Source: Candidatus Methylospira mobilis (GTDB lineage Bacteria > Pseudomonadota > Gammaproteobacteria > Methylococcales > Methylococcaceae). From it: DNA of 64,000 nt. The position numbers and the translations under genes were made by a program. Where the stretch lies: positions 2,667,389-2,731,388 of the forward strand of contig NZ_CP044205.1 in NCBI RefSeq assembly GCF_009498235.1, written 5' to 3'. The first letter of the stretch is position 1; each line of letters starts with the position of its first letter. The notes below the pieces were generated by a model that did no database searches, had not been told where the DNA came from, and saw only the letters and a program-made list of their open reading frames with translations. Below, one piece after another: positions 39,521 to 61,318 of this stretch.

Positions 39521-40198
39521 GTGTTTATCCCTATATTGCGTACTGCAGCCATAGCCGGCTTGCTGGCGGCGTTGCTGTTGACGCTGCTGCAGGCGCTGTG
39601 GGTAACGCCGTTGATTCTGAATGCCGAAACCTATGAAAACAGGGCTAATGTATTTGGGATGAGCGCACAGCTCGCAACCGAAGCGCAGGCAGCAGATAAT
39701 TTCTGGGGACGCACGGCCGGTACAGCCCTGGCCAACGCGGCGATGGGCTTGGGGTACGGCCTGATTTTAAGCGGTCTTTATTTGCTGCGCCGTCCGTCCG
39801 GGTCCGGACTGCTACAGGGTGTGGCATGGGGCTTGGCCGGCTATACGGTGTTTTTTGCCGCGCCAAGCCTGGGGTTGCTGCCCGAGCTGCCCGGCACGGC
39901 TACTGCCGAGTTAAGCGCGCGCCAGCATTGGTGGCTGGGTACTACATTGGCGACAGCGGCAGGTCTGGCCCTGCTGTTTCTGCAAGCGCGGCGTTTGCTA
40001 CAGATGCTGGGACTGCTATTGCTGATGCTGCCCCACTGGCTCGGCGCGCCGCAACCGGCATTAGCCGTCAGTCTGGCGCCGGAAGTCCTGCAAACGCAGT
40101 TCCGCGTGGCGACCTTGATCTGCAATGCCTTATTTTGGCTGCTACTGGGAATATCTTCAGTCTACCTGTTTCAACGCAGTATGGAGGATAATGGGTGA
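39521..40198 (+). CDS. cbtA: Cobalt transporter subunit CbtA
   Basis: 225 residues from a GTG at 39521, with about five to six hydrophobic segments: TAAIAGLLAALLLTLLQALW, an internal GLGYGLILSGLYLL, GLAGYTVFFAAPSLGL, TAAGLALLFL, LGLLLLMLPHWLG and the end segment LICNALFWLLLGISSVYLF. The motif GTALANAAMGLGYG and the conserved LPPELPG-like stretch (LLPELPGTATAEL) match CbtA. It acts with CbtB in cobalt uptake. Its stop overlaps the cobM GTG (GTGA), indicating translational coupling. Confidence 0.92.
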   Translation: MFIPILRTAAIAGLLAALLLTLLQALWVTPLILNAETYENRANVFGMSAQLATEAQAADNFWGRTAGTALANAAMGLGYGLILSGLYLLRRPSGSGLLQGVAWGLAGYTVFFAAPSLGLLPELPGTATAELSARQHWWLGTTLATAAGLALLFLQARRLLQMLGLLLLMLPHWLGAPQPALAVSLAPEVLQTQFRVATLICNALFWLLLGISSVYLFQRSMEDNG

Positions 40199-40986
40199 GT
40201 CCGCCAGGAAAAGTCTGGTTCGTAGGCGCGGGGCCCGGAGATCCCGATCTGATCACGGTCAAGGGACGCAAGCTGATCGAACGGGCCGATGCGATTCTTT
40301 ATGCCGGTTCGCTGGTATCGGAAGCCGCGCTACACTGGGCCAAGCCCGGCTGCGCCGTGGCCGATTCCAAGGACATGACGCTGGAGCAGATAAGCGGCTG
40401 GCTGATCGAGCAGGCAGGCATGCATGCGACCATAGTGCGTCTGCAAACCGGCGATCCCTGTCTTTACGGCGCGTTGATAGAAATGGTGCGTCCCCTTGAT
40501 GCGATGGCTATCGAAGTCGGCGTGGTGCCCGGCGTCTCTTCGGCGATGGCTTCGGCGGCAGCGGCAGCGGAAAGCCTGACGCTGCCGGAAGTTACCCAGA
40601 CCGTAATCCTGACGCGTGTCGAGGGCCGAACGCCGATGCCCGAGCATGAATCGCTACGCGAATTAGCCGCTCATCATTGCACCTTGTGTCTGTTTCTTTC
40701 CATCACATTGCTGAAAGAAATAAAACGCGCGTTGATGGATGCCGGATGGTCAGATGATGCGCCGGTGGTAGTAGTGCAAAAAGCCAGCTGGCCCGATCAG
40801 GAGAAAATCGTACGCGGCACTTTGCGCGATATACGTACGCGCTGCATGGACGAAGGCATTACCAGTCAGGCGATGATTATCGTCAGCCCGGCACTGGGCG
40901 CACGTCATTGGCCTGATATAAAACGCTCCAAGCTTTACGACCCTGGCTTCTCTCATCGTTTTCGCAAAGCGGAACATTCATCATGA
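40195..40986 (+). CDS. cobM: Precorrin-4 / cobalt-precorrin-4 C11-methyltransferase
   Basis: 263 residues, an SAM-dependent tetrapyrrole methyltransferase (CobM/CbiF). The N-terminal P-loop-like motif is WFVGAGPGDPDLITVKG and the second signature is VRLQTGDPCLYGALIEM. VPGVSSAMASAAAAAESLTL and the SAM-binding C-terminal half (LFLSITLLKEI) follow. In the early-cobalt route implied by cbiX and cbiD this is CbiF. It starts with GTG overlapping cbtA and ends in an ATGA overlap with cbiX. Confidence 0.95.
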   Translation: MSPPGKVWFVGAGPGDPDLITVKGRKLIERADAILYAGSLVSEAALHWAKPGCAVADSKDMTLEQISGWLIEQAGMHATIVRLQTGDPCLYGALIEMVRPLDAMAIEVGVVPGVSSAMASAAAAAESLTLPEVTQTVILTRVEGRTPMPEHESLRELAAHHCTLCLFLSITLLKEIKRALMDAGWSDDAPVVVVQKASWPDQEKIVRGTLRDIRTRCMDEGITSQAMIIVSPALGARHWPDIKRSKLYDPGFSHRFRKAEHSS

Positions 40987-41822
40987 ACAAAACAGATACC
41001 CTGTTGCTGGTAGGTCACGGTTCCCGCAATACGGCAGGCAACCTCGAAATTGAACAGTTTGCCGGGCAATGGCGTGCGCGGCATCCGGACTGGCGCATTG
41101 TGGTCTGCTTCATCGAGTTCGCCGAGGTGTTGCTGGCAGCGGGGCTGGATTTGGCAGCGCGCGACAGTCAGCGCGTGATCGTGGTCCCACTGATTCTCAA
41201 TGCCGCGGGCCATGTCAAAATGGAAATACCCGAAGCCATCGAACATGCTCGGTTGCGCCACCCCGATACCGAATTCGTTTGCGCGCGTCATCTCGGCGCG
41301 TGCGAAGAAATCCTCGCGGTTTTGAAGCGTAATCAACGGAGCGCCCTGGCGCAACTGGACTACCCCGATCCACACAACACCGGCGTCATCCTGATTGGGC
41401 GCGGCTCGTCCGACCGGGTAGCAAACGGCGAAGTGGCGAAGATCGCGCGCTGGCTGTACGAGGAAAGCGCTCATTCCCTGGTAGATATCGCCTTCACCGG
41501 CATCACCTATCCGCGCCTGGAGTCCGTTGTGCAACGTCAGGCAACGCTAGGTATGAGACAAATCGTCCTGCTGCCCTACTACCTGTTTACCGGCACGCTG
41601 ATCGAACGCATCAAGCGTCAGAACGAGCGCTTGCGCATGCAATACCCCTCCATTCATTTTGCATCGGGCGATTACTTCGGCTTCGAACCGGAAATACAGG
41701 CCCTGCTGGAGCGTCGCATCGACGAAGCAAACGGTGTGGCCCAGGCCCGCGCGATGATGGAGTGCGACGGCTGCAAATACCGCGAGTTTGCCGCCGACCA
41801 GGGCAAAGGACATCAGCATTAA
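40983..41822 (+). CDS. cbiX: Sirohydrochlorin cobaltochelatase CbiX (long form)
   Basis: 279 residues, two chelatase-like domains. The first begins LLLVGHGSRN, with the metal-binding His, and has a second His in NAAGHVKMEIP. The second domain begins VILIGRGSSD. The C-terminus carries MECDGCK (M-x-C-x-x-C, Cys261 and Cys264) and ends GHQH, echoing the iron-sulfur motif and His-rich end of the Bacillus megaterium CbiX. It inserts Co2+ into sirohydrochlorin and so commits the pathway to early cobalt insertion. It overlaps cobM by ATGA; about 240 bp then precede cobH. Confidence 0.94.
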   Translation: MNKTDTLLLVGHGSRNTAGNLEIEQFAGQWRARHPDWRIVVCFIEFAEVLLAAGLDLAARDSQRVIVVPLILNAAGHVKMEIPEAIEHARLRHPDTEFVCARHLGACEEILAVLKRNQRSALAQLDYPDPHNTGVILIGRGSSDRVANGEVAKIARWLYEESAHSLVDIAFTGITYPRLESVVQRQATLGMRQIVLLPYYLFTGTLIERIKRQNERLRMQYPSIHFASGDYFGFEPEIQALLERRIDEANGVAQARAMMECDGCKYREFAADQGKGHQH

Positions 41823-42064: not shown

Positions 42065-42721
42065 ATGAGCAACATTATCACCGAACAACTCACCGAAGCC
42101 GGACGCCGCATCGAACACGACTCTTTTGCGGTTGTCGACGCGGAAACAGGCGCCCATGACTACCCGGAGGAGGAATGGCAAGTCGTCCGACGCATGATCC
42201 ACGCCACCGCGGATTTCGAGTTTAATGGTTTAACCCGTTTTCACCCTTCCGCCATTGAGGCCGGGATTGCAGCCATCCGTAATGGCGCGCCGCTGATCGC
42301 CGATGTGGAAATGATTTGCGTAGGTTTGTCGCAACCGCGCCTGGAGCATTTCGGCGTGAAAGCTCATCATTTCATCGCCGACCCGGACGTCATTAGCGAG
42401 GCCGGAAAGCAAAATAGCACGCGCGCAGTGCAGGCGATGCGCAAGGCGCAGACATTAGGGTTACTGGAAGGTGGAATCATCGCAGTAGGCAACGCCCCCA
42501 CCGCATTACTGGAAATTGTGCGCATGATCGGACAGGAAAATCTTAAGCCGGCGCTGATAGTCGGCATGCCGGTAGGTTTTGTATCTGCTGCGGAATCCAA
42601 GGCCGCTACAGCTGAATTAACGGAAACGCCCTGGATCATCACTTCGGGACGCAAGGGCGGCTCGACTCTCGTGGTAGCCGTAATCCATGCGCTGCTGGCT
42701 CTGGCCGAGGCGCGCCGCTAA
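42065..42721 (+). CDS. cobH: Precorrin-8X / cobalt-precorrin-8 methylmutase
   Basis: 218 residues from the ATG at 42065, chosen because CobH/CbiC proteins start shortly before the SFAVVDAE block; longer reading lacks support. DFEFNGLTRFHPSAIEAG, the DVEMICVGLS segment and NAPTALLEIVRMI are characteristic. The catalytic His is expected in the RMIHATADFEF segment. It moves the methyl group from C11 to C12, giving (cobalt-)cobyrinate. The 240-bp gap before it is the largest inside the operon and may hold a secondary promoter. cbiD follows after 5 bp. Confidence 0.94.
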   Translation: MSNIITEQLTEAGRRIEHDSFAVVDAETGAHDYPEEEWQVVRRMIHATADFEFNGLTRFHPSAIEAGIAAIRNGAPLIADVEMICVGLSQPRLEHFGVKAHHFIADPDVISEAGKQNSTRAVQAMRKAQTLGLLEGGIIAVGNAPTALLEIVRMIGQENLKPALIVGMPVGFVSAAESKAATAELTETPWIITSGRKGGSTLVVAVIHALLALAEARR

Positions 42722-42726
42722 GTCTC

Positions 42727-43839
42727 ATGAAAAAAAGGGTCAAAGGAACGCGCAAAGGTTATACCACCGGCGCCTGCTCCGCCGCTGCGGCGCGCGCGGC
42801 CACTTTGGGGCTGATAACAGGTGGTGTACCGGAAGAAATTGAATGCGAGTTGCCGAACGGTCAGTGCGTGCGCTTTGCGGTAATCGAGGGCGAATGCCGC
42901 AAAGGCGAATACGCCCACGCCGTCGTCATCAAGGATGCCGGCGACGACCCTGATGTAACCGACAAGGCGCCGCTGACCGCCGATGTCCGGCTGTTATCCG
43001 ACTGCATCGGCAGCGTGGTGCTTAAAGGCGGCGCCGGGGTCGGTATCGTTACCCGACAAGGTCTCGGCCTGGAGGTCGGCGGTCCGGCCATCAACCCTGT
43101 GCCGCGCCGCAATATCGAGCACAACGTCCGCGCAGTAGGCGACTTTTTGCTGCAACGATCCGGACTGGAAGTCTCCATTTCCGTACCCGGCGGCGAGGAA
43201 ATGGCTAAAAAAACATTGAACTACCGTCTCGGCATCATCGGCGGTATTTCCATACTGGGTACGACCGGCATCGTCCACCCCTACTCCACCGCAGCCTTTC
43301 GCGCCAGCGTGATTCAAGGCATAGAGGTTGCAGCGCGCCAGGGACAGGAAACAGTCGTGCTCACCACCGGCGGGCGCACCGAAAAGTTCACCATGCGCGA
43401 GTTGCCGGAACTGGCCCCCGCCTGTTTTGTGCAGATGGGCGATTTTCTGAAATATGCGCTGGATAGCGTCGTCGAATGCGGAATTCGCCATGTCGTCATC
43501 GGCGGCATGATCGGCAAACTCACCAAAATTGCGCAAGGAGAAACCATTACCCATGCCAACCGCAGTGAGGTCGATACCGGTTTGCTCGCCGAAATTGCTA
43601 CCGGCATCGGCGCGCCTCCCGAAGTCTGCGAAGAAATCCGCAACTCGGAAATGGCGCGCTACGCCAGCGAGCGCATGGAAGCGCTCGGCATGATCAGCGA
43701 GTTTTACCAGGCTTTGGGACGGCGCGTGATTCGGACTTTACGCACGCGCTATCCTGATCAATTCAGCTTGCGCATACTGATGTGCGATTTCGAGGGCGAT
43801 AAACTGGCCGAAGTTTCCGGAGCTGATAATCATGTCTGA
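42727..43839 (+). CDS. cbiD: Cobalt-precorrin-5B C1-methyltransferase
   Basis: 370 residues. It begins with the family signature RKGYTTGACSAAAARAATLG. VTRQGLGLEVGGPAINPVPR, GTTGIVHPYSTAAFRASV and the MGDFLKYALD region follow. CbiD is structurally unlike the other methyltransferases and is specific to the early-cobalt route, so it is strong evidence for that pathway. It overlaps cobL by 8 bp. Confidence 0.95.
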   Translation: MKKRVKGTRKGYTTGACSAAAARAATLGLITGGVPEEIECELPNGQCVRFAVIEGECRKGEYAHAVVIKDAGDDPDVTDKAPLTADVRLLSDCIGSVVLKGGAGVGIVTRQGLGLEVGGPAINPVPRRNIEHNVRAVGDFLLQRSGLEVSISVPGGEEMAKKTLNYRLGIIGGISILGTTGIVHPYSTAAFRASVIQGIEVAARQGQETVVLTTGGRTEKFTMRELPELAPACFVQMGDFLKYALDSVVECGIRHVVIGGMIGKLTKIAQGETITHANRSEVDTGLLAEIATGIGAPPEVCEEIRNSEMARYASERMEALGMISEFYQALGRRVIRTLRTRYPDQFSLRILMCDFEGDKLAEVSGADNHV

Positions 43840-45118
43840 TCGCTGCCGCATCATCGGCGTACTCGACAATGGCGCTGCCGGGATCACTGCCGGTGCTTTG
43901 CGCCTGATTCACGAAGCGGAGCTGGTGATCGGCGCTACGCGCACCTTGAAGCTGCTCGCTGCAGCTATCGACGTCAATGCCGAACAGCGCGACTTGAGCG
44001 GGCAACTGACCCAGGTTCCGTCCTGGGTCGCGCAAGCCCTGGAACAGGGCCGCAGCGTAGTGGTGCTGGCCAGCGGAGATCCGTTGTGCCATGGCATAGC
44101 CGCTTATCTGGCCGGAAAACTGGATCGCTCCACACTGGAAATCATACCCAATGTTTCCACGCTGCAATGGGCTTTTGCGCGCCTGGGGTTGAGCTGGCAA
44201 CACGCTGCGATTGCATCCGTGCACAGCCGCGATGCCGGAGAGTGGGTGTCCGGCGCAGGACCGGAACATGGACTTTACGCATTACTGCAGCAGCTACGCA
44301 ACGCCACGCTGGTCGCTGCATTTACCAGCCCGGAAAACAGCCCCGACCGTATCGCGCGCATGCTGCTCGCCGAAGGCCTGGCGCCGGAGTTCGAAATACT
44401 GGTTGCGCAACACCTATTGCAAAAAGACGAATGCATATCGGATTGGTTGGCTGTCGAACAAGCCGCGCTGCAGCATTTTGCCGACCCCAATATCGTCATT
44501 CTGCACCGTAAACAACCGCAACCCGACGAAGCCTTATTCGGCTTGCCCGACGAACGCTTTCACCAGCGTACGCCGGAGCGCGGCTTGATTACCAAGCGCG
44601 AAGTCCGGGCGGTGTCGCTGGCGCGCCTGGAGCTGCGCGCGCACAGCATCGTCTGGGACATCGGCGCAGGTTCCGGAGCAGTCGGCCTGGAGGCGTCGCG
44701 TCTGTGTCCGCACGGGCATGTTTACGCCATCGAAAAAAACGAGGCCGACTACGCCATAGCGCTGAGTAACCGCGCAAGCCTGAAAGCGGCCAACTACACG
44801 CTGATCCATGGACGCGCTCCGCCGGACATTTCCGGTTGGCCCGATGCCGACGCCATTTTTATCGGCGGCTCCGGCGGCGAATTGCGCGAATTGATCCTGC
44901 TGTGCTTGCAACGCTTGCGCAGCGGTGGTCGGCTGGTGATTAACTTCGTCACCATAGAAAATCTGGCTAACGCCGTGGAAACGCTAAAAGAGTCGGGCGC
45001 TCCGTGGGACGTAACCCAACTGCAAGCGGCACGCAGTCGGCCTATACTCGATCTGCATCGCATGCAGGCGGAAAACCCGGTGTGGATCATCAGCGCGGGG
45101 AAGCCGGGCAATGAATAA
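43832..45118 (+). CDS. cobL: Precorrin-6Y C5,C15-methyltransferase (decarboxylating), CbiET fusion
   Basis: 428 residues in two domains. The N-terminal half (about 1-210, CbiE) is a tetrapyrrole methylase with IIGVLDNGAAGITAGAL and VVLASGDPLCHGI. The C-terminal half (about 230-420, CbiT) has the Rossmann SAM motif IVWDIGAGSGAVGLEASRL and AIFIGGSGGELREL. It methylates C5 and C15 and decarboxylates the C12 acetate. It overlaps both neighbours by 8 bp. Confidence 0.95.
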   Translation: MSDRCRIIGVLDNGAAGITAGALRLIHEAELVIGATRTLKLLAAAIDVNAEQRDLSGQLTQVPSWVAQALEQGRSVVVLASGDPLCHGIAAYLAGKLDRSTLEIIPNVSTLQWAFARLGLSWQHAAIASVHSRDAGEWVSGAGPEHGLYALLQQLRNATLVAAFTSPENSPDRIARMLLAEGLAPEFEILVAQHLLQKDECISDWLAVEQAALQHFADPNIVILHRKQPQPDEALFGLPDERFHQRTPERGLITKREVRAVSLARLELRAHSIVWDIGAGSGAVGLEASRLCPHGHVYAIEKNEADYAIALSNRASLKAANYTLIHGRAPPDISGWPDADAIFIGGSGGELRELILLCLQRLRSGGRLVINFVTIENLANAVETLKESGAPWDVTQLQAARSRPILDLHRMQAENPVWIISAGKPGNE

Positions 45119-45878
45119 CAGACAAGGCCGTTTGTTCGGCGTTTCGCTCGGTCCCGGCGACCCCGGTTTGATTACCCGGCGCGCCTATGCATTGCTGCAA
45201 CGCAGCGACGCGCACTGGACCTACCCGGTACGGCGAAAAAATGCCGAAAGCCATGCCTTGCAGATCGCATTGCAATCGGGGCTGGCATTGCCAGCGGAAC
45301 ACACGCCGCTGGTTTTTCCGATGACCCACGACAGCGAAATTCTGGCAGGTTACTGGCTGCAAGCCGCCGAAACCGTGCAGGTGCGCCTGAATAGCGGACA
45401 GGATGTGCTGTTTCTAGTGGAAGGCGACGCGTCCACCTACTCGACTTTCAGCCATTTGGCGCGCACGCTGTCCGCCCTGGACGATCAGGCGCGTATCGAA
45501 ACCATTCCCGGCGTACCGTCCTTTAATGCCGCCGCCGCCAGTTTCGGCATGCCGCTGGCGGATACCGACGAAACCGTGGCGATTATCCCCGCCGGTTACG
45601 GCATCGCGATGATCGAACGCCTGCTGGATGATTTCGACACGCTGGTGTTATTGAAGGTCAAACCACTGCTGGACGATATCCTGGAGCTTTTGCAACGCCG
45701 CCAGCTGTTGCCTTATGCCGCATTCATCGAAAAGGCCGGCACCGAGTTCGAACGCATCGAAATCGATGTCACCGCTTTGCGCGGCGAAAAAGTTAATTAT
45801 CTGTCGTTGTTGCTGGTGAAAAATCCGAGCAGGGAGCGAAGCGAAGTACAGCGCGGCTGCCGTAAAAAGTCTGAATGA
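45111..45878 (+). CDS. cobI: Precorrin-2 / cobalt-factor II C20-methyltransferase
   Basis: 255 residues, CobI/CbiL type. LFGVSLGPGDPGLITRRAY starts the SAM/tetrapyrrole domain. VLFLVEGDASTYSTFSHL is the second signature, followed by IPGVPSFNAAAASFG. It performs the first ring methylation after cobalt insertion. It overlaps cobL by 8 bp. A 19-bp gap then leads to a protease-like gene before the pathway resumes with cbiG. Confidence 0.95.
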   Translation: MNNRQGRLFGVSLGPGDPGLITRRAYALLQRSDAHWTYPVRRKNAESHALQIALQSGLALPAEHTPLVFPMTHDSEILAGYWLQAAETVQVRLNSGQDVLFLVEGDASTYSTFSHLARTLSALDDQARIETIPGVPSFNAAAASFGMPLADTDETVAIIPAGYGIAMIERLLDDFDTLVLLKVKPLLDDILELLQRRQLLPYAAFIEKAGTEFERIEIDVTALRGEKVNYLSLLLVKNPSRERSEVQRGCRKKSE

Positions 45879-45897: not shown

Positions 45898-46302
45898 ATG
45901 GGACATATTTTCGCCAATATTGAACTGAGTAATCCACGCAAGCCTGAATTGCGTCCATTGGCGGTCACGGCGCTGGCCGATACCGGCGCTTTGATGCTGT
46001 GCCTGCCTGAGGATATTGCACTGCAACTCGATTTGCAAACAGAATCGTTACGTGAAGTTACCGTAGCAGATGGCCGCTCAATGACCGTGCCTTACGTCGG
46101 GCCGGTGAAAGCGTCGTTCGAAAACAGAATGTGTTTTGTCGGGACGCTGCTGATGGGAGATGAAGTGTTGCTCGGCGCTGTACCTATGCAAGACATGGAC
46201 CTGCAGCTGTCGCCTGGTCATCAAAGGGTAACGGTAAACCCAAACAGTCCCAATATCCCTCATGCCCGAGTAAAAAAGAACATTAATCAACACTCGGAGT
46301 AA
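45898..46302 (+). CDS. Clan AA (retropepsin-like) aspartic protease
   Basis: 134 residues. The catalytic D-T-G-A motif is seen in ALADTGALMLCLPEDIA, with the hydrophobic second element LLGAVPMQDMDL, matching single-domain retropepsin-like proteins of about 120-130 residues that would work as homodimers. No signal peptide or membrane segment. GGAGAGA precedes the ATG, a strong own ribosome site. The gene lies between cobI and cbiG on the same strand with gaps of 19 and 6 bp, so it is carried in the B12 transcript. No link between this protease family and cobalamin is known to me; the gene may simply be an insertion. Confidence 0.85.
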   Translation: MGHIFANIELSNPRKPELRPLAVTALADTGALMLCLPEDIALQLDLQTESLREVTVADGRSMTVPYVGPVKASFENRMCFVGTLLMGDEVLLGAVPMQDMDLQLSPGHQRVTVNPNSPNIPHARVKKNINQHSE

Positions 46303-46308
46303 GCATTA

Positions 46309-47061
46309 ATGCATTCAGCCCCAAATGCCCCGGCGCCATTGATTGCGCTGGTAGCAATCACCAAACACGGCGTCGCGCAAGCAGCGAAACTGGCCGAACT
46401 GCACCCCGACGCGGAAATCGCGGTACCGGAAAAATTCGCGACCAGCTTGACGTCATTGACGAATACGATACACGCGCTGCCCGGCGCATTGAGCGGTCAC
46501 ATCGGCGACTTGTTTTCGCGTTACGATCAACTCGTATTTTTCGTATCGCTGGGCGCGGTGGTACGCCTGATCGCCCCGCATCTGAAATCCAAGGAGGAAG
46601 ACCCCGGCGTGCTGGTGGTGGACGACAACGCGCGCTATGTAATTCCGGTACTGTCAGGCCATGTCGGCGGCGCCAACGCCTATGCCGAATATTTGGCGGC
46701 GCTGCTGGAAGCGGAAGCGGTATTGACCACGGCGTCGGATGTAGGCAAAACCATTCCGGTCGATATACTCGGGCGCGAATTGGGCTGGCGGGTGGAAGCG
46801 CCAAAAATCAACATTACGCGGGTATCCGCGCATGTTGTTAACGAAGAAGCCGTCGCCTTCGTCCAGGAGGCCGGAGCTATAAACTGGTGGACGCGCCCTA
46901 CCCCGTTGCCCGCCAATATTCATTTATTCAAAAGTTTCGAGGAAGTCGATCTCGAGCGGCATCGCGCTGTGCTGTGGGTAACCCGGCGTGAAATAGCGCC
47001 TGAACTGTGGGCGCAACTGGAAGAACGCCTGGTGGTCTATCGACCACCCGAGGAACGATAA
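46309..47061 (+). CDS. cbiG: Cobalt-precorrin-5A hydrolase CbiG, N-terminal and central domains
   Basis: 250 residues. The core DQLVFFVSLGAVVRLIAPHL with DPGVLVVDDNARYVIPVLSG and HVGGANAYAEYLA is the CbiG N-terminal domain; the central domain follows from about 140 (VGKTIPVDILGRELGW). CbiG opens the delta-lactone and releases acetaldehyde (C20) in the early-cobalt pathway. The third domain is encoded separately by the next gene, starting 2 bp downstream, so CbiG is split here. Confidence 0.93.
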   Translation: MHSAPNAPAPLIALVAITKHGVAQAAKLAELHPDAEIAVPEKFATSLTSLTNTIHALPGALSGHIGDLFSRYDQLVFFVSLGAVVRLIAPHLKSKEEDPGVLVVDDNARYVIPVLSGHVGGANAYAEYLAALLEAEAVLTTASDVGKTIPVDILGRELGWRVEAPKINITRVSAHVVNEEAVAFVQEAGAINWWTRPTPLPANIHLFKSFEEVDLERHRAVLWVTRREIAPELWAQLEERLVVYRPPEER

Positions 47062-47063
47062 AC

Positions 47064-47456
47064 ATGCGCGTGATGTTAGGGCTAGGCTGCGATCGCAACG
47101 CTTCGCTGGATACCTTGCTGCAGGCAATCGAACAGGCGCTGAGCAGCGCCGGCTTAACGCCGCACGATGTAGCCGGAGTGGCCAGTATCGACAGGAAAAA
47201 CGATGAAACCGCGCTGCTGCAGGCAGCGCGGCAACATGACTGGCCGTTGCATTTTTTTCCGGCGGAAACCTTGGCGCAAGTGCCGGTGCCAAACCCATCG
47301 GAAACAGTGCGCAAATACATGGGTACGCCGGCGGTGGCTGAAGCAGCGGCTTTGCTGGCATCCGGCGGCGAGTTGATATTGGAAAAATACAAATACCAGG
47401 GTACGGACGGAAAAAACGCCACAGTATCGATAGCGAGAATGAATGATGGCAAATAG
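47064..47456 (+). CDS. cobE: CobE / CbiG C-terminal domain protein
   Basis: 130 residues from the ATG at 47064. GLGCDRNASLDTLLQAIEQA is the typical start of the CobE/CbiG_C domain, followed by VAGVASIDRKNDETAL and the end IARMNDGK. In single-chain CbiG this domain closes the protein; as a free unit it is named CobE. With the preceding gene it should make up complete CbiG. It ends 14 bp inside the start of cobJ. Confidence 0.92.
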   Translation: MRVMLGLGCDRNASLDTLLQAIEQALSSAGLTPHDVAGVASIDRKNDETALLQAARQHDWPLHFFPAETLAQVPVPNPSETVRKYMGTPAVAEAAALLASGGELILEKYKYQGTDGKNATVSIARMNDGK

Positions 47457-48828
47457 CGGCAAAATTTTATTAGTGGGCTTCGGTCCCGGTTCAGTCGAAC
47501 ACATGACCCAGCGCGCGCGCGCTGCGATAGCCGAAGCGGACGTGGTAATCGGCTATTCGACCTATATAAAACTGGTTCAGGATCTGCTCGAAGGCAAGGA
47601 AGTAATCCGCAAAGGGATGACCGAGGAAATCGACCGCTGCAGCGAAGCCTACGAACAAGCGCTGCAGGGCAAAACCGTGGCGCTGATTTCCTCCGGCGAT
47701 ATCGGCGTCTATGGCATGGCCGGGCCAACCTATGAAGTATTACTGAAATCAGGCTGGACGCCGGACAGTCATATCAGCGTGGAAGTCATTCCCGGTGCAA
47801 CCGCGCTGAATGCCTGCGCTGCGCTGGTTGGAGCGCCTCTGACCCATGACTTTTGCTCTATTTCGCTGTCAGACCTGCTTACGCCGTGGCCGGTTATAGC
47901 CAAGCGGCTGGAAGCGGCGGCGCGCGGTGATTTCGTGGTCGCACTGTACAACCCGAAAAGCGGCCGCCGCACGCAGCAAATTGTCGAAGCGCAAGCCATA
48001 TTGCTGCGCTATCGGAGCCCGGAAACACCTGTAGCCATCGTCAAATCCGGATACCGGCGCCGACAGGCGATTTACAAAACCACCCTGGACAACATGGCAG
48101 AGTGCGATATCGGCATGCTGTGTACGGTGCTGATCGGCAATAGCAGTACTTTTATACGCGAAGGGCTGATGATCACCCCGCGCGGCTATGCCAACAAATA
48201 CGACCAGCTAAACGGCGCAACCAGAGGCGGCGAACAGGCAGGCCGCTCGCTGAGCATGGGGTTGATCGGTTGGCATGCCTGCGTGCGCAAACATATCAGG
48301 GAACAGCCGCAGCTTTCGCTACGCGACATTGCACAATATTTCGATACTTCCCTGGCTGAAATACTTGCCGCCATTGCTACCAGAACGCCTGAAGAAGAGA
48401 CAGGACCTTATCAGGCGAAAGCCTTGCCTGCGGACAATATCGAAAAAGTTCTGGAATCTGCGAAAACCTGGGGCCATTTGCGCGCAATAGTCCGTAGCCA
48501 GGGCGGCGCAACCGCGGAATTGTTGCTGCAGGCGGTTAATCTGGTCCGGCGCGGAGATTGGCTCAATCTGGTCAATGAGCATTTTCATTTACACGTCGAT
48601 ATAAGCGGTATCCAGCGCGCATGGTTTTTTAGCCGCGCCGATCTACAGCATGGCGTCTATTTTTGCGACAAGCACGGCAACGCAGTATTTTCGTTGTTGC
48701 TGGTCAAGCAGGGACTAACTTACGATGCCGGATCATTGGCAGCTTTTAAAAACACAACCGAGCAATTCGGACTAATCTACCTTCACGTTGCAGAACCTGT
48801 TGAAATCGAGGAAAAATCCGATGAATGA
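47443..48828 (+). CDS. cobJ: Precorrin-3B / cobalt-factor III C17-methyltransferase fused to a HutX/ChuX-like domain
   Basis: 461 residues. Residues 1-255 are the CobJ/CbiH methyltransferase (LLVGFGPGSVEHMTQRA, ALISSGDIGVYGMAGP, VVALYNPKSGRR, ending MITPRGY), which methylates C17 and contracts the ring. Residues about 276-445 are extra and match heme-binding HutX/ChuX in order: a helical head (HIREQPQLSLRDIAQYFDTS), a WGHLRAIVRSQGG strand, HFHLHVDISGI, and the paired end VYFCDKHGNAVFSLLLVKQG. The methyltransferase is complete, so this is a fusion, not a broken gene. A role in holding the corrin intermediate is inference. Two tandem ATG codons start it; it overlaps cobE by 14 bp and the ferredoxin gene by 8 bp. 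Confidence 0.9.
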   Translation: MMANSGKILLVGFGPGSVEHMTQRARAAIAEADVVIGYSTYIKLVQDLLEGKEVIRKGMTEEIDRCSEAYEQALQGKTVALISSGDIGVYGMAGPTYEVLLKSGWTPDSHISVEVIPGATALNACAALVGAPLTHDFCSISLSDLLTPWPVIAKRLEAAARGDFVVALYNPKSGRRTQQIVEAQAILLRYRSPETPVAIVKSGYRRRQAIYKTTLDNMAECDIGMLCTVLIGNSSTFIREGLMITPRGYANKYDQLNGATRGGEQAGRSLSMGLIGWHACVRKHIREQPQLSLRDIAQYFDTSLAEILAAIATRTPEEETGPYQAKALPADNIEKVLESAKTWGHLRAIVRSQGGATAELLLQAVNLVRRGDWLNLVNEHFHLHVDISGIQRAWFFSRADLQHGVYFCDKHGNAVFSLLLVKQGLTYDAGSLAAFKNTTEQFGLIYLHVAEPVEIEEKSDE

Positions 48829-49177
48829 CGATACCCGGACCGCCATACCAGAAAAACCGAAAATGGCCGACTATAAACGGCTCCTGCTGGTTTGCACCGG
48901 CCCGCGCTGTACGCTGAACGGGGAAGGACAGACACTGTTCGATGGTCTCGGTGAAAAATTCAAGGCGGCCGGCATAGATCAAGGCCCGTTGCGTGTTAAG
49001 CGTACCCGGGTTTCCTGTTTCGCCACCTGCAAGGCCGGTCCGATCGTCTGCGTACAACCAGATGGAATATGGTACTACAATGTCAACGAAGCCAATCTGG
49101 ACCGTATCATTCAGCAACACCTCGTTGGAGGAGAACCGGTCGAGGATTTAATCTACCACCGCGGGCCGGAATTGTGA
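48821..49177 (+). CDS. [2Fe-2S] ferredoxin, thioredoxin-like fold
   Basis: 118 residues from the ATG at 48821, which overlaps the cobJ stop by 8 bp. Four cysteines lie as in thioredoxin-like [2Fe-2S] ferredoxins: CTGPRC near residues 25-30 and CFATCKAGP about 40 residues on. The end (YYNVNEANLDRIIQQHL) is also typical. As the last gene of the operon it may supply electrons for a pathway step such as the ring contraction or the CbiJ-type reduction; this is inferred from position only. Confidence 0.9.
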   Translation: MNDDTRTAIPEKPKMADYKRLLLVCTGPRCTLNGEGQTLFDGLGEKFKAAGIDQGPLRVKRTRVSCFATCKAGPIVCVQPDGIWYYNVNEANLDRIIQQHLVGGEPVEDLIYHRGPEL

Positions 49178-57148: not shown

Positions 57149-60100
57149 GTGAAAATTATGTTTCGTGATACGAAAATGGGTATGCGCTTATCCCTGAGTT
57201 TTGGCTTCATACTTATTTTGATGGCCTCAATCGCTTGGTTCGGTACGGCGCGCTTGGGCGAACTCAATGAATCTATTAAGCTGATAAGCGGTGACCGCTA
57301 TCCGAAAACGGTACTCGCGAACGATATCATCAAACAGGTCAACATTGTTGCGCGCGCAATGCGTAACGCGTTGTTGCTAACAGATAAGGAACTGGCAGCT
57401 AAGGAACTGGATCGCGTAGAGGAAGTACGCAAGGCGATTAATGATGATATGGCCAGACTGGAAAAAACGATCACTACAGATCAAGGCAAGGCGACGCTGG
57501 CTGCTGTGAAGGATGCCCGATCCAAGTATTTGCTTGTGCAGGACAACTTCATACGCATAATGAAGAGCGGTCAGAACAAGGAAGCCTCCGTTTATCTGAT
57601 GGACGAAGTGCGTCCTCTCTTTACACCCTACATGGATGCCATCACCAACCTGATCAACATTCAAAGCGAATTGGTGGAGAAAGCCGGCCAGGAAGCGCAG
57701 GCCAATTATCAATCGGCATGGCAGTTGATGTTGCTGCTGACATGCCTGGCGCTTGTGTTGAGCGGCATCGTTACGTTCTGGGTCACGCGCAGCATTACTC
57801 GCCCGCTGAAAGAAGCAGTTGATGCGGCGGACAAGATCGCCGTAGGCGATCTCTCCTTCAAGCTACAGGTTGATCGGAATGACGAAACCGGCCAAATGCT
57901 CAAGGCAATTGTAACCGCGCAGAATGCGGTAAAGGCCATGATTGCAGACGCTGTCCTGCTGGCTAATGCCGCAGTGGAAGGAAAGCTGGCGACCCGGGCC
58001 GATGAAAGTAAACATCAGGGTGAATATCGCAAGATCGTGCAAGGCGTCAACAACACGCTGGACGCAGTGATCGGGCCGTTGAACGTCGCGGCCGACTATG
58101 TCGATCGTATTTCCAACGGCGATATCCCGCCAAAGATTACCGACAAATATAACGGCGATTTCAACGCCATCAAGAATAATCTGAACAAAGCCATCGACGC
58201 GGTCAATGCCCTGGTGGCAGACGCCAACCTGCTCTCGGTTGCTGCCGTACAGGGTAAACTGGCGACGCGCGCCGACGCCGGCAAGCATCAGGGCGATTTT
58301 GCCAAAATCGTGCAGGGCGTCAACGACACGCTGGACGCGGTCATCGGACCATTGAACGTCGCGGCCCATTATGTGGACCGTATCTCCATCGGCGATACTC
58401 CACCAAAGATTACCGATACCTACAACGGCGATTTCAATACCCTTAAAAACAACCTGAATATCTGTATCGACGCCATAAATCAGCAAGTCGCGGCCGCTCA
58501 GGGCATTGCCGCAGGCGATTTGTCGGTCAAGGTCACGGTACGTTCGGAGAAGGACGAACTGGCCAAGAGCCTGATTCACGTGACCGATGTACTGGGTAAT
58601 TTGCAAAAAGAGATGGGACGCTTGACCGATGCGTCCAATAAAGGGCAACTGTCCGAGCGCGCCAAGCCGGAACGGTTCGAAGGCGCATATGCCGAAGTAT
58701 TGCGCGGCACCAACGAAATGCTGGATGCAATATTGCTGCCGATCGGCGAAGGCAACCGCATCCTGTCGCTGATCCGAGGCGGCAATCTGCGTGAAAAAGT
58801 CGAGATCATCTGTCACGGCGATCACCAGAAAATGAAGGAAGCCGTCAATGGCGTTCATGGCTGGTTAAGCGAGCTTATCAGGTACATTACCGGCATCGCC
58901 AATGGCGATCTGAGCGTGGAAATGGGCAAAGCCTCGAACGACGATCAGATACACGAGTATCTGCTGCTGGTCAAAAACAACATCAATGCGCTGGTGAATG
59001 ACGCCAACCGATTGTCAGTGGCGGCGGTCGAGGGCAAGTTGGCGACGCGCGCCGACGCCGGCAAGCATCAGGGCGATTTCCGCAAGATCGTGCAGGGCGT
59101 CAACGACACGCTGGACGCGGTTATCGGGCCGTTGAATGTCGCAGCAGGCTACGTGGATCGCATCTCCAACGGCGATATCCCGCCTAAGATTACCGACAAC
59201 TACAATGGCGATTTCAACCTGATCAAGAACAACCTGAACAAAGCCATTGACGCGGTGAATACGCTGGTTGCCGACGCCAATACCTTGTCGGCAGCAGCGG
59301 TCGCCGGCAAACTGGAGACGCGCGCCGATGCAAGCAAGCACCAGGGCGACTTCCGCAAGATCGTACAGGGCGTCAACGACACGCTGGACGCGGTTATCGG
59401 GCCGTTGAATGTCGCAGCAGGCTACGTGGATCGCATCTCCAACGGCGATATCCCGCCTAAGATTACCGACAACTACAACGGCGATTTCAACCTGATCAAG
59501 AATAACCTGAACAAGGCCATTGACGCGGTGAATACGCTGGCTGCCGACGCCAACACGCTGGCGGCGGCAGCGGTCGCCGGCAAACTGGCGACGCGCGCCG
59601 ATGCGAGCAAGCATCAGGGCGACTTCCGCAAGATCGTACAGGGCGTCAACGACACGCTGGACGCGGTTATCGGGCCGTTGAATGTCGCAGCAGGCTACGT
59701 GGACCGTATTTCCAACGGCGATATTCCGCCGAAGATCACCGACAGTTACAACGGCGATTTCAACCTGATCAAGAACAACCTGAACAAGGCCATTGACGCG
59801 GTGAATACGCTGGTCGCCGACGCCAATACGCTGGCGGCGGCGGCGGTTGCCGGCAATCTGGCGACGCGCGCCGACGCCGGCAAGCATCAGGGCGACTTCC
59901 GCAAGATCGTGCAGGGCGTCAACGACACGCTGGACGCGGTTATCGGGCCGTTGAATGTCGCCGCAGGCTACGTGGACCGTATTTCCAACGGCGATATTCC
60001 GCAGAAGATCACCGACAGTTACAACGGTGACTTCAACCTGATCAAGAACAACCTGAACAAGGCCATCGACGCCGTCAACGCACTGGTGGCCGATGCGAAC

Positions 60101-61318
60101 GCCTTGTCGGCGGCGGCAGTCGCGGGCAAACTGGCGACACGCGCCGATGCGAGCAAACATCAGGGAGACTTCCGCAAAATCGTGCAGGGTGTCAACGACA
60201 CGCTGGATTCCGTCATCGGCCCGGTCAACAATCTGGCGGCGGCCATTGCGGAACTGGGCAACAACAATCTCAGCGCCGAACTGAAAGGCGAATACCGCGG
60301 CGACTTCCTGGAGGTCAAAAACTCCTACGAAACGGCCATGGTTCGCCTCAACAATACCTTGCACCAGATCGTCGACGCGGTCGAAGGCGTAGGGCAATCT
60401 TCAGAACAGCTCAATGTGGCTTCGCAAAATATGGCGGCAACCTCGGAAGAGCAATCCTCCTCGGTAGAAGAAGTCACATCCAGCCTGGAACAAACCGACA
60501 GCCAGGTCAAAGCCAATACCGACAACGCCAACATGGCCAACCAACTGGTAACCGGCACCGCCCAGGCCGCCAACGAAGGCCAGGCGCGCATGGAAGACAT
60601 GGTGCAGGCGATGACGGCGATCGACGCCTCGTCGCAGAATATCGCCAAGATCATCAAGGTCATCGACGAAATTGCCTTCCAGACCAATCTGCTCGCGCTC
60701 AACGCCGCAGTCGAAGCGGCGCGCGCCGGACAGCACGGACGCGGATTCGCCGTAGTCGCGCAAGAAGTGCGCAATTTGGCGGGACGCAGCGCCAAGGCCG
60801 CGCGCGAAACCGCAGAAATGATAGAAAACTCCGGCAAGCGCGTCACCGAAGGCGTTGCGATCACGCAAAAAACACGCGAAGCGCTGGGCCAAATCGTCGG
60901 CAATGTCGTCAAGGTAAAAGATCTCGTTGCAGAAATCGCTACCGCAAGCGTTGAACAGTCACACGGCGTCACACAAATCAATGTAGCAATGAATCAGGTT
61001 GCAAAAGCCGCCCAGGAAGGCAGCTCGCAAGCCGCCGAGCTGGCTGCTGCGGCCAATCAGCTTAGAGATCAGTCGAACCTGATGCGCAACGAAGTACGAA
61101 GCTTTACCTTGCGCAACACGCAAAAAACCGGCGCTTCGACTGTTCACAATCTGGAAAAGCTATCGCCGGAAATGCTGCATCAAATGGGCCTGGGCGACAA
61201 TAAGCAGGCTGTCTATGCACCTGCTTCGGCAACACAGCACAGCGCCGGACACAAGAAAAGCGCGCCAAAATTGACGCTGCCGCTGGATGCCGATGAGCGT
61301 GGATTTGGCGATTTTTAA
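57149..61318 (+). CDS. Methyl-accepting chemotaxis protein with expanded HAMP-like repeat array
   Basis: 1389 residues, against about 550 for an ordinary receptor. TM1 lies at about 15-35 ([17 protein letters not shown]). A periplasmic four-helix sensor follows to about 190, then TM2 ([20 protein letters not shown]) and the first HAMP. From about 280 to 1030 lie seven repeats of 91 residues (GKLATRAD...[14 protein letters not shown]...NKAIDAVN): two, a 169-residue divergent HAMP-like insert, then five more. The signalling domain includes the conserved tip [20 protein letters not shown]. Output is to the CheA/CheW encoded in the same operon. The cytosolic array resembles poly-HAMP arrays of fungal Nik1-type kinases and Aer2. 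Confidence 0.95.
57989..60230 (+). repeat. 273-bp coding repeats within the receptor gene
   Basis: The codons for ATRAD recur at 57989, 58262, 59042, 59315, 59588, 59861 and 60134. The spacing is exactly 273 bp within each block, and 780 bp across the insert (273 + 507). The five 3' units are near-identical at DNA level for long stretches, including synonymous positions, so they expanded recently or are homogenised by gene conversion. Such repeats can gain or lose units in frame. Confidence 0.95.

Follow-up and report, generated by a model that had tools for sequence, protein, structure and literature searches.

The 64,000-nucleotide stretch of Candidatus Methylospira mobilis DNA analyzed here (the window) carries a cobalamin-biosynthesis (cbi) operon led by a cobalamin riboswitch (RF00174, 38963–39206, 69.7 bits, gathering 31.5). 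The riboswitch and the named genes that follow lie on the plus strand: CbtA, a probable cobalt transporter subunit (39521–40198, PF09490, 139.7 bits), a tetrapyrrole methylase named CbiF from its sequence and place in the operon (40195–40986, PF00590, 159.6 bits), the cobaltochelatase CbiX (40983–41822, PF01903, 147.9 bits), CbiC (42065–42721, PF02570, 236 bits, with a putative start codon in a frame listed from 41966) and CbiD (42727–43839, PF01888, 297.7 bits). Next is a CbiET fusion (43832–45118), in which the CbiE half matches PF00590 (87.7 bits at 7–200) and the remainder, by length and family knowledge, is what we take to be the CbiT half. A second tetrapyrrole methylase, named CbiL on the same grounds as CbiF (45111–45878, PF00590, 148.4 bits), precedes CbiG, which is split into one gene for its N-terminal and middle parts (46309–47061, PF11760, 113.1 bits; PF11761, 52.7 bits) and another for its C-terminal part (47064–47456, PF01890, 132.8 bits). 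The latter gene, with a probable ATG at 47064 in a frame listed as 47007–47456, overlaps cbiH (47443–48828) by 14 bases. Also within the operon is a small aspartyl-protease-like frame (45898–46302; PF13650, 23.3 bits, cut-off 24.3), for which phmmer found no labelled match among 67 named loci. Unrelated to the operon, the window encodes at 57149–61318 a 1389-aa protein, chemoreceptor-like by our reading, with seven near-identical repeats of ~90 residues each.

Immediately after cbiH lies a gene for a thioredoxin-like [2Fe-2S] ferredoxin (48821–49177, PDB 1f37, E=7.3e-14). Its listed frame is 48788–49177; the start at 48821 was set by overlap, with 8 bases shared with the CbiH stop. The match to PF01257 (23.6 bits) fell below the gathering threshold of 24.8, and the cluster cysteines C19, C24, C60 and C64 were invariant in 30/30 aligned sequences at a mean column identity of 72%. 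The sequence-only reading of this DNA had placed a [2Fe-2S] ferredoxin gene after cbiH, and these results bear it out.

CbiH itself is encoded, by translation of the window, in a single open frame of 461 aa. Residues 8–250 match TIGR01466 cobJ_cbiH at 320.6 bits (cut-off 246.35) over model positions 1–239 of 239, residues 7–218 match PF00590, and the best PDB match of this module is 2zvb (E=9.6e-85). By the TIGR01466 match, the module (residues 1–264, 47443–48234) probably carries out C17 methylation with ring contraction. It is followed by the conserved tether RSLSMGLIGW (residues 268–277, 48244–48273), the helical head of a HutX fold (residues 274–312, 48262–48378), which in the domain model holds Cys280, and a ChuX/HutX beta domain with its last helix (residues 322–442, 48406–48768). 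In the full-length model (pLDDT 83.7, pTM 0.62) residues 263–273 have pLDDT below 50, and we read them as a probably flexible tether.

The added domain matches PF06228 ChuX_HutX over residues 321–420 (39.6 bits, gathering 25) and PF05171 HemS over residues 322–440 (32.3 bits, gathering 24). Searched as a single sequence against those of the PDB, the domain had only weak matches, the best at E 0.11 (HemS family), so that the case for the domain rests on profiles and fold. In the reverse test, a profile built from 63 CbiH-fused domains alone picked out HemS (E=1.5e-8) and 2hqv (E=6.9e-7) among the PDB entries. AlphaFold2 run on the alignment of the 63 fused domains yielded a predicted model with pLDDT 89.4 and pTM 0.85, for which the best Foldseek matches in the PDB were ChuX, 2ph0, 2hqv, HutX, HemS, PhuS and ChuS, with E down to 6.4e-12; the 23 best rows were these five named families and their structural-genomics relatives. 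VIA-align, in which rows with Z below 9 were treated as unrelated, superimposed the model on ChuX 2ovi_A with Z 18.4 (rmsd 2.2, 152 aligned), on HutX 5exv_B with Z 18.0 and on ChuS/HemS/PhuS with Z 15–16. The order of elements proposed earlier, with head helices followed by a WGHLRAIVRSQGG strand, the HFHLHVD strand and a VYFCDKHGNAVFSLLLV hairpin, was recovered, and the earlier description of a complete C17-methyltransferase followed by a ChuX/HutX-like part agrees with both profile scores and with the fold. The match to the HutX equivalog TIGR04108 was weak (23.3 bits against a cut-off of 110); judged by its sequence, the domain is a relative of HutX and not a HutX. PF06228 had no second match in the one-contig window genome, which leaves no paralogue of that family with a role in heme utilisation to explain the domain.

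The fusion recurs in other genomes. It was present in 8/61 related genomes (the window's own included), and a tether-pattern scan of genome contigs (84,980 species by the database description) matched 73 stretches, of which 6 were unconfirmed and 67 loci were retained. The scan listed only Pseudomonadota, some of the records being labelled just Proteobacteria, and the domain-profile searches covered the window's own phylum. The loci come from Methylococcales, Gallionella, Sideroxydans, Mariprofundales, Chromatiales, Thiosymbion, Spongiibacter and others. CbiH sequence and domain share one frame in 66/67 loci; among the 66, CbiH is broken upstream in L054 (split by a frame break, on the same contig as L155) and partial in L038 and L075, and the tails of L049 and L062 are short. 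L076 ends in the tether. Conservation of the tether among the 67 loci is partly circular, the linker pattern having collected them, and the profile searches of order and phylum are less biased. In the order sample CbiH was above cut-off in 67/201 genomes, 47 of which had the domain and 20 did not. The domain matches there numbered 48, all in genomes with completeness of 90% or more and contamination of 5% or less; G513 (E 5.3e-4, positions 77–153 of a 364-aa frame that reads as HemS-like) was left out of the fused count. In the phylum sample CbiH was above cut-off in 154/398 genomes, with the domain in 21 and without it in 133; G320, with a partial CbiH below cut-off, stands outside the 21, and 29 weak matches (E 4.8e-7 to 1e-3) were not taken as fusions. 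Alignment A2 leaves out L075, L049, L062 and L038, with their cut or short tails, and A3 and the tree leave out near-copies. A gene-join or frame error was rejected: the reading frame runs uninterrupted in this one-contig genome and in dozens of further genomes, and the domain occurs in 47/67 CbiH-bearing genomes of the order. The architecture is visible to any Pfam scan, and the open-licence full texts, as far as their available portions extend, yielded no paper describing a CbiH-ChuX/HutX fusion.

Several loci have further rearrangements. At L037:3265–5364 the CbiH-HutX protein is additionally fused to a nitroreductase-family domain (699 aa; PF00881, 102.8 bits); this part reads as BluB from its sequence, which would place three B12-linked parts in one chain. 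At L045:6645–8543 and L153:2443–4392 the CbiG C-terminal part precedes CbiH-HutX in one frame (632 and 649 aa, starts as listed). The genome of Methylobacter luteus (L010, L024) has the cbi gene row, CbiH-HutX and ferredoxin included, in two copies, and G582 likewise has two domain matches.

Identity to the window's domain was 27–53% among the fused domains, and in the 63 aligned domains a small set of residues was near-invariant: W343 (63/63), R347 (62/63), R351 (61/63), E359 (61/63), H382 (59/63) and H384 (61/63), with the codons for Arg347 to Arg351 at 48481–48495 and those for His382 to His384 at 48586–48594, both on the plus strand. In the alignments, His384 falls on ChuX H98 and HemS R102, Arg351 occupies the ChuX H65 position (61/63) and Trp373 the HutX Tyr90 position (53/63). 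We take the ChuX H65 and H98, HutX Y90 and HemS R102 positions to be heme-ligand sites. The ChuX/HutX set is not kept as a whole in these domains: there is His at the H98 position, and Arg351 and Trp373 at the other two, so the family's heme site has not been retained in that form. The site keeps one family ligand position and has its own second His and two Arg, and by analogy with the family these Arg and His side chains probably face into the pocket. The tetrapyrrole-binding role suggested by the sequence-only reading is thus possible, with His at one ligand position and two His and two Arg near-invariant, and its heme-type ligand set is kept in part. Cys280 of the helical head (codon 48280–48282) recurs in 50/63 fused domains, and the other Cys columns of the domain reach at most 7, then 6, 6 and 6 of 63.

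These residues and the ferredoxin bear on a reading that we consider unlikely, namely that heme bound to the domain acts as a redox cofactor through which ferredoxin electrons reach the CbiH active site. The domain would then stand in place of the C-terminal extension of CbiH60 of Priestia (Bacillus) megaterium, which reportedly bears a [4Fe-4S] cluster. The domain, with Cys280 as its one conserved Cys column, has no Fe-S-type Cys set of that kind. Arg and Trp at what we take to be the ligand positions of ChuX H65 and HutX Y90 speak against a heme relay. Heme binding by the HutX family speaks for it: ChuX, ChuS and HutX each bind heme in a 1:1 ratio, and HutX transfers it to enzymes (PMC10404700, PMC12670364). 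So do the overlap of the ferredoxin gene with the cbiH stop codon, the four invariant cysteines and the frequency of the pairing. Where the contig allows, gene order near cbiH is nearly constant among the 67 loci, and a ferredoxin scored above 100 bits in at least 53 of them, several of the remaining 14 being cut by contig ends. In L053, L061 and L064 the frames downstream of CbiH read as cbiB or cobD-like, and the plus-strand frames inspected there, of at least 100 aa, include no ferredoxin.

Among 39 chosen genome/locus entries, the specific ferredoxin (at least 179 bits) was present in 10, with G112 and G627 being one genome. It occurred without the beta domain (G285, G354) and with a degenerate one (G630). 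Conversely, the same search did not find it in five domain-bearing genomes (G606, G619, G623, G624, in which one His of the domain is changed, and G625) or in G629, G066 and G074; those of these genomes that have names are mostly draft or metagenome assemblies, at least some of them MAGs, so some of the absences may be gaps, and ORF-based absences are soft since the ORF-based search missed the copy of G285 that was later found. Each of these eight genomes has a distant ferredoxin (~40–65 bits), as does G144 (91 bits). Ferredoxin and beta domain are usually together but separable, and a strict electron-delivery pair is therefore not required, which weighs against the heme relay. In seven Mariprofundales-type loci (L057, L060, L081, L083, L086, L089, L093) a second, diverged ferredoxin follows the first, scoring 73–92 bits in the last five.

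The beta domain has been lost or has decayed in some lineages in which CbiH is kept. G285 and G354 retain the tether and head, with the beta domain gone; most of the motif has disappeared from L072 and L073; and the domain of G066/G074 is strongly diverged (71–74 bits). L167:6937–8085 and L169:7387–8391 are natural truncations, encoding CbiH with tether and head and without the beta domain, and adjoined by the specific ferredoxin. The domain is dispensable in some lineages. A CbiH tree of 99 rows (midpoint root) included close relatives of the window's CbiH but not that CbiH itself, and two of its rows, L135 and L162, come from a single genome. It united fused, degenerate and head-only forms in one group (94/90, not a starred branch). 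L072 and L073, both degenerate, and the head-only pair (100/100) branched among fused rows, and the diverged G066/G074 pair sat at an unresolved fork at the base of the group. Parsimony gave 3 changes for the degenerate label and 1 for head-only, with 2 and 1 forced by starred branches. Most likely, the fusion arose once and decayed more than once.

Persistence of the tether and head after decay of the beta domain would fit a module that only aids CbiH dimerisation or senses heme or corrinoid, the pocket being a relic in some lineages. We regard this as quite improbable, as the His, Arg, Trp and Glu set is kept in 59–63 of 63 domains at low identity, suggesting that the site is functional in most of these proteins.

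The fusion is also associated with the absence of CbiJ/CobK (PF02571), which has no match in the whole window genome and hence none in the operon. In the order sample CbiJ was found in 0/47 fused genomes and in 20/20 CbiH genomes without the domain (Fisher 1.7e-17, species not being independent). The corresponding counts in the phylum sample were 0/21 and 105/133, and among named fused genomes CbiJ was present in 1/33 (Spongiibacter thalassae). In Methylocaldum marinum S8, cbiJ-cobK is reported as the B12 pathway's only gap (PMC10974252). In 19/20 of the CbiJ-bearing order genomes, the CbiJ and CbiH matches were in frames of equal length (518–821 aa), and the six such proteins inspected (L147–L151, L154) are CobJ-CobK fusions by reading. 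Loci L157–L174 (G062, G078, G101, G173, G201 and others), from several lineages of the phylum, hold cbi operons with neither a CbiJ match nor a HutX domain.

These counts and the gap in strain S8 could suggest that the domain, either by itself or together with the ferredoxin, takes over the step of CbiJ/CobK on cobalt-precorrin-6A by a HemS-like hydride transfer from NAD(P)H. HemS binds heme through H196, and in HemS relatives NAD(P)H can serve as hydride donor to heme (PMC11773379). We nevertheless find such a replacement very unlikely. In the phylum sample 28 CbiH genomes lack both CbiJ and the domain (one, G164, is cut at a contig end, and two are head-only). CbiJ-lacking rows without the domain adjoin the fused group in the tree (fork 89/88, midpoint root), so that CbiJ appears to have been lost before the fusion arose. 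CbiJ is still missing from genomes in which the beta domain is degenerate or lost, and G066, G074 and G629 among them also lack a match to the specific ferredoxin. The one CbiJ-bearing fused genome (L071) keeps the motif. Moreover, of the double Phe gate of HemS (F104, F199) the test covered the F104 position, which was never Phe in the 63 domains (D33, N15, H8, P3, K2, E2). The domain alone as the CbiJ replacement is lowered by the 28 genomes, the tree and the degenerate relatives; the ferredoxin as sole replacement was rejected as a general explanation because its specific form was not found in G606, G619, G623–G625, G629, G066 and G074, all without CbiJ. The domain may still be a reductase; the presence and absence counts do not show that. 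The broader proposal, that the HutX-fold module and ferredoxin form a redox catalyst for a cobalt-tetrapyrrole, a so far overlooked reductase in anaerobic B12 synthesis acting in ring contraction or in CbiJ's place, is in our view improbable; if true, a heme-carrier fold would be used in making, not handling, a tetrapyrrole.

We give about an even chance to the reading that the domain is a tethered holder for cobalt-tetrapyrrole intermediates. The family profiles and fold, the riboswitch-led cbi operon, the spread of the fusion, the near-invariant pocket-type residues and heme binding in the family all point to it; loss or decay of the beta domain in some lineages and the many CbiH proteins without the domain argue against it. 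The first module would methylate C17 and contract the ring of cobalt-factor III, and the ChuX/HutX-fold module, on its flexible conserved tether, would bind the cobalt-tetrapyrrole itself, holding substrate or product beside the CbiH active site. His384, with His382, may touch the cobalt or the ring face, and Arg347 and Arg351 may hold ring carboxylates. Cobalt-factor III has eight carboxylates and heme two, and the larger number would fit the two Arg. The hosts include methane and iron oxidizers that would be exposed to oxygen, and the module might shield an oxygen-sensitive intermediate before passing it on. Where present, the coupled [2Fe-2S] ferredoxin may keep the cobalt or ring reduced.

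Through the fusion a heme-carrier fold is linked with ring contraction, which is difficult and poorly understood among the steps that make vitamin B12 anaerobically, and nearly all fused hosts tested are without the known reductase CbiJ. The genetically tractable methanotroph Methylotuvimicrobium buryatense 5G carries the fusion (L017), so both the role of the domain and the missing reductase are directly testable.

Compared with CbiH/CobJ proteins (TIGR01466; PDB 2zvb), the window protein likewise has a complete catalytic module, and an anaerobic-type operon with CbiX, CbiD and CbiG is common to both; the window protein adds ~195 residues of tether and ChuX/HutX fold. With the cytosolic heme carriers ChuX and HutX (PF06228; 2ovi, 5exv) it shares the fold over the whole domain, head helices included (Z 18), and His384 at the ChuX H98 position. 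The window's domain is, however, joined to a B12 enzyme, is well under the HutX equivalog cut-off, and has Arg for H65, Trp for Y90, two conserved Arg and a second His. Each half of HemS/ChuS/PhuS (PF05171) aligns with the window's domain, which is single and not tandem and has H384 at the position of HemS R102. CbiH60 is likewise a CbiH with a C-terminal extension, reportedly for the ring-contraction step and with [4Fe-4S], whereas the window's extension has one conserved Cys. The CobJ-CobK fusions of other Methylococcales (L147–L151, L154) also unite the ring-contraction enzyme with a tetrapyrrole-acting domain; theirs joins it to the reductase CobK/CbiJ, whereas the window's joins it to a heme-carrier fold.
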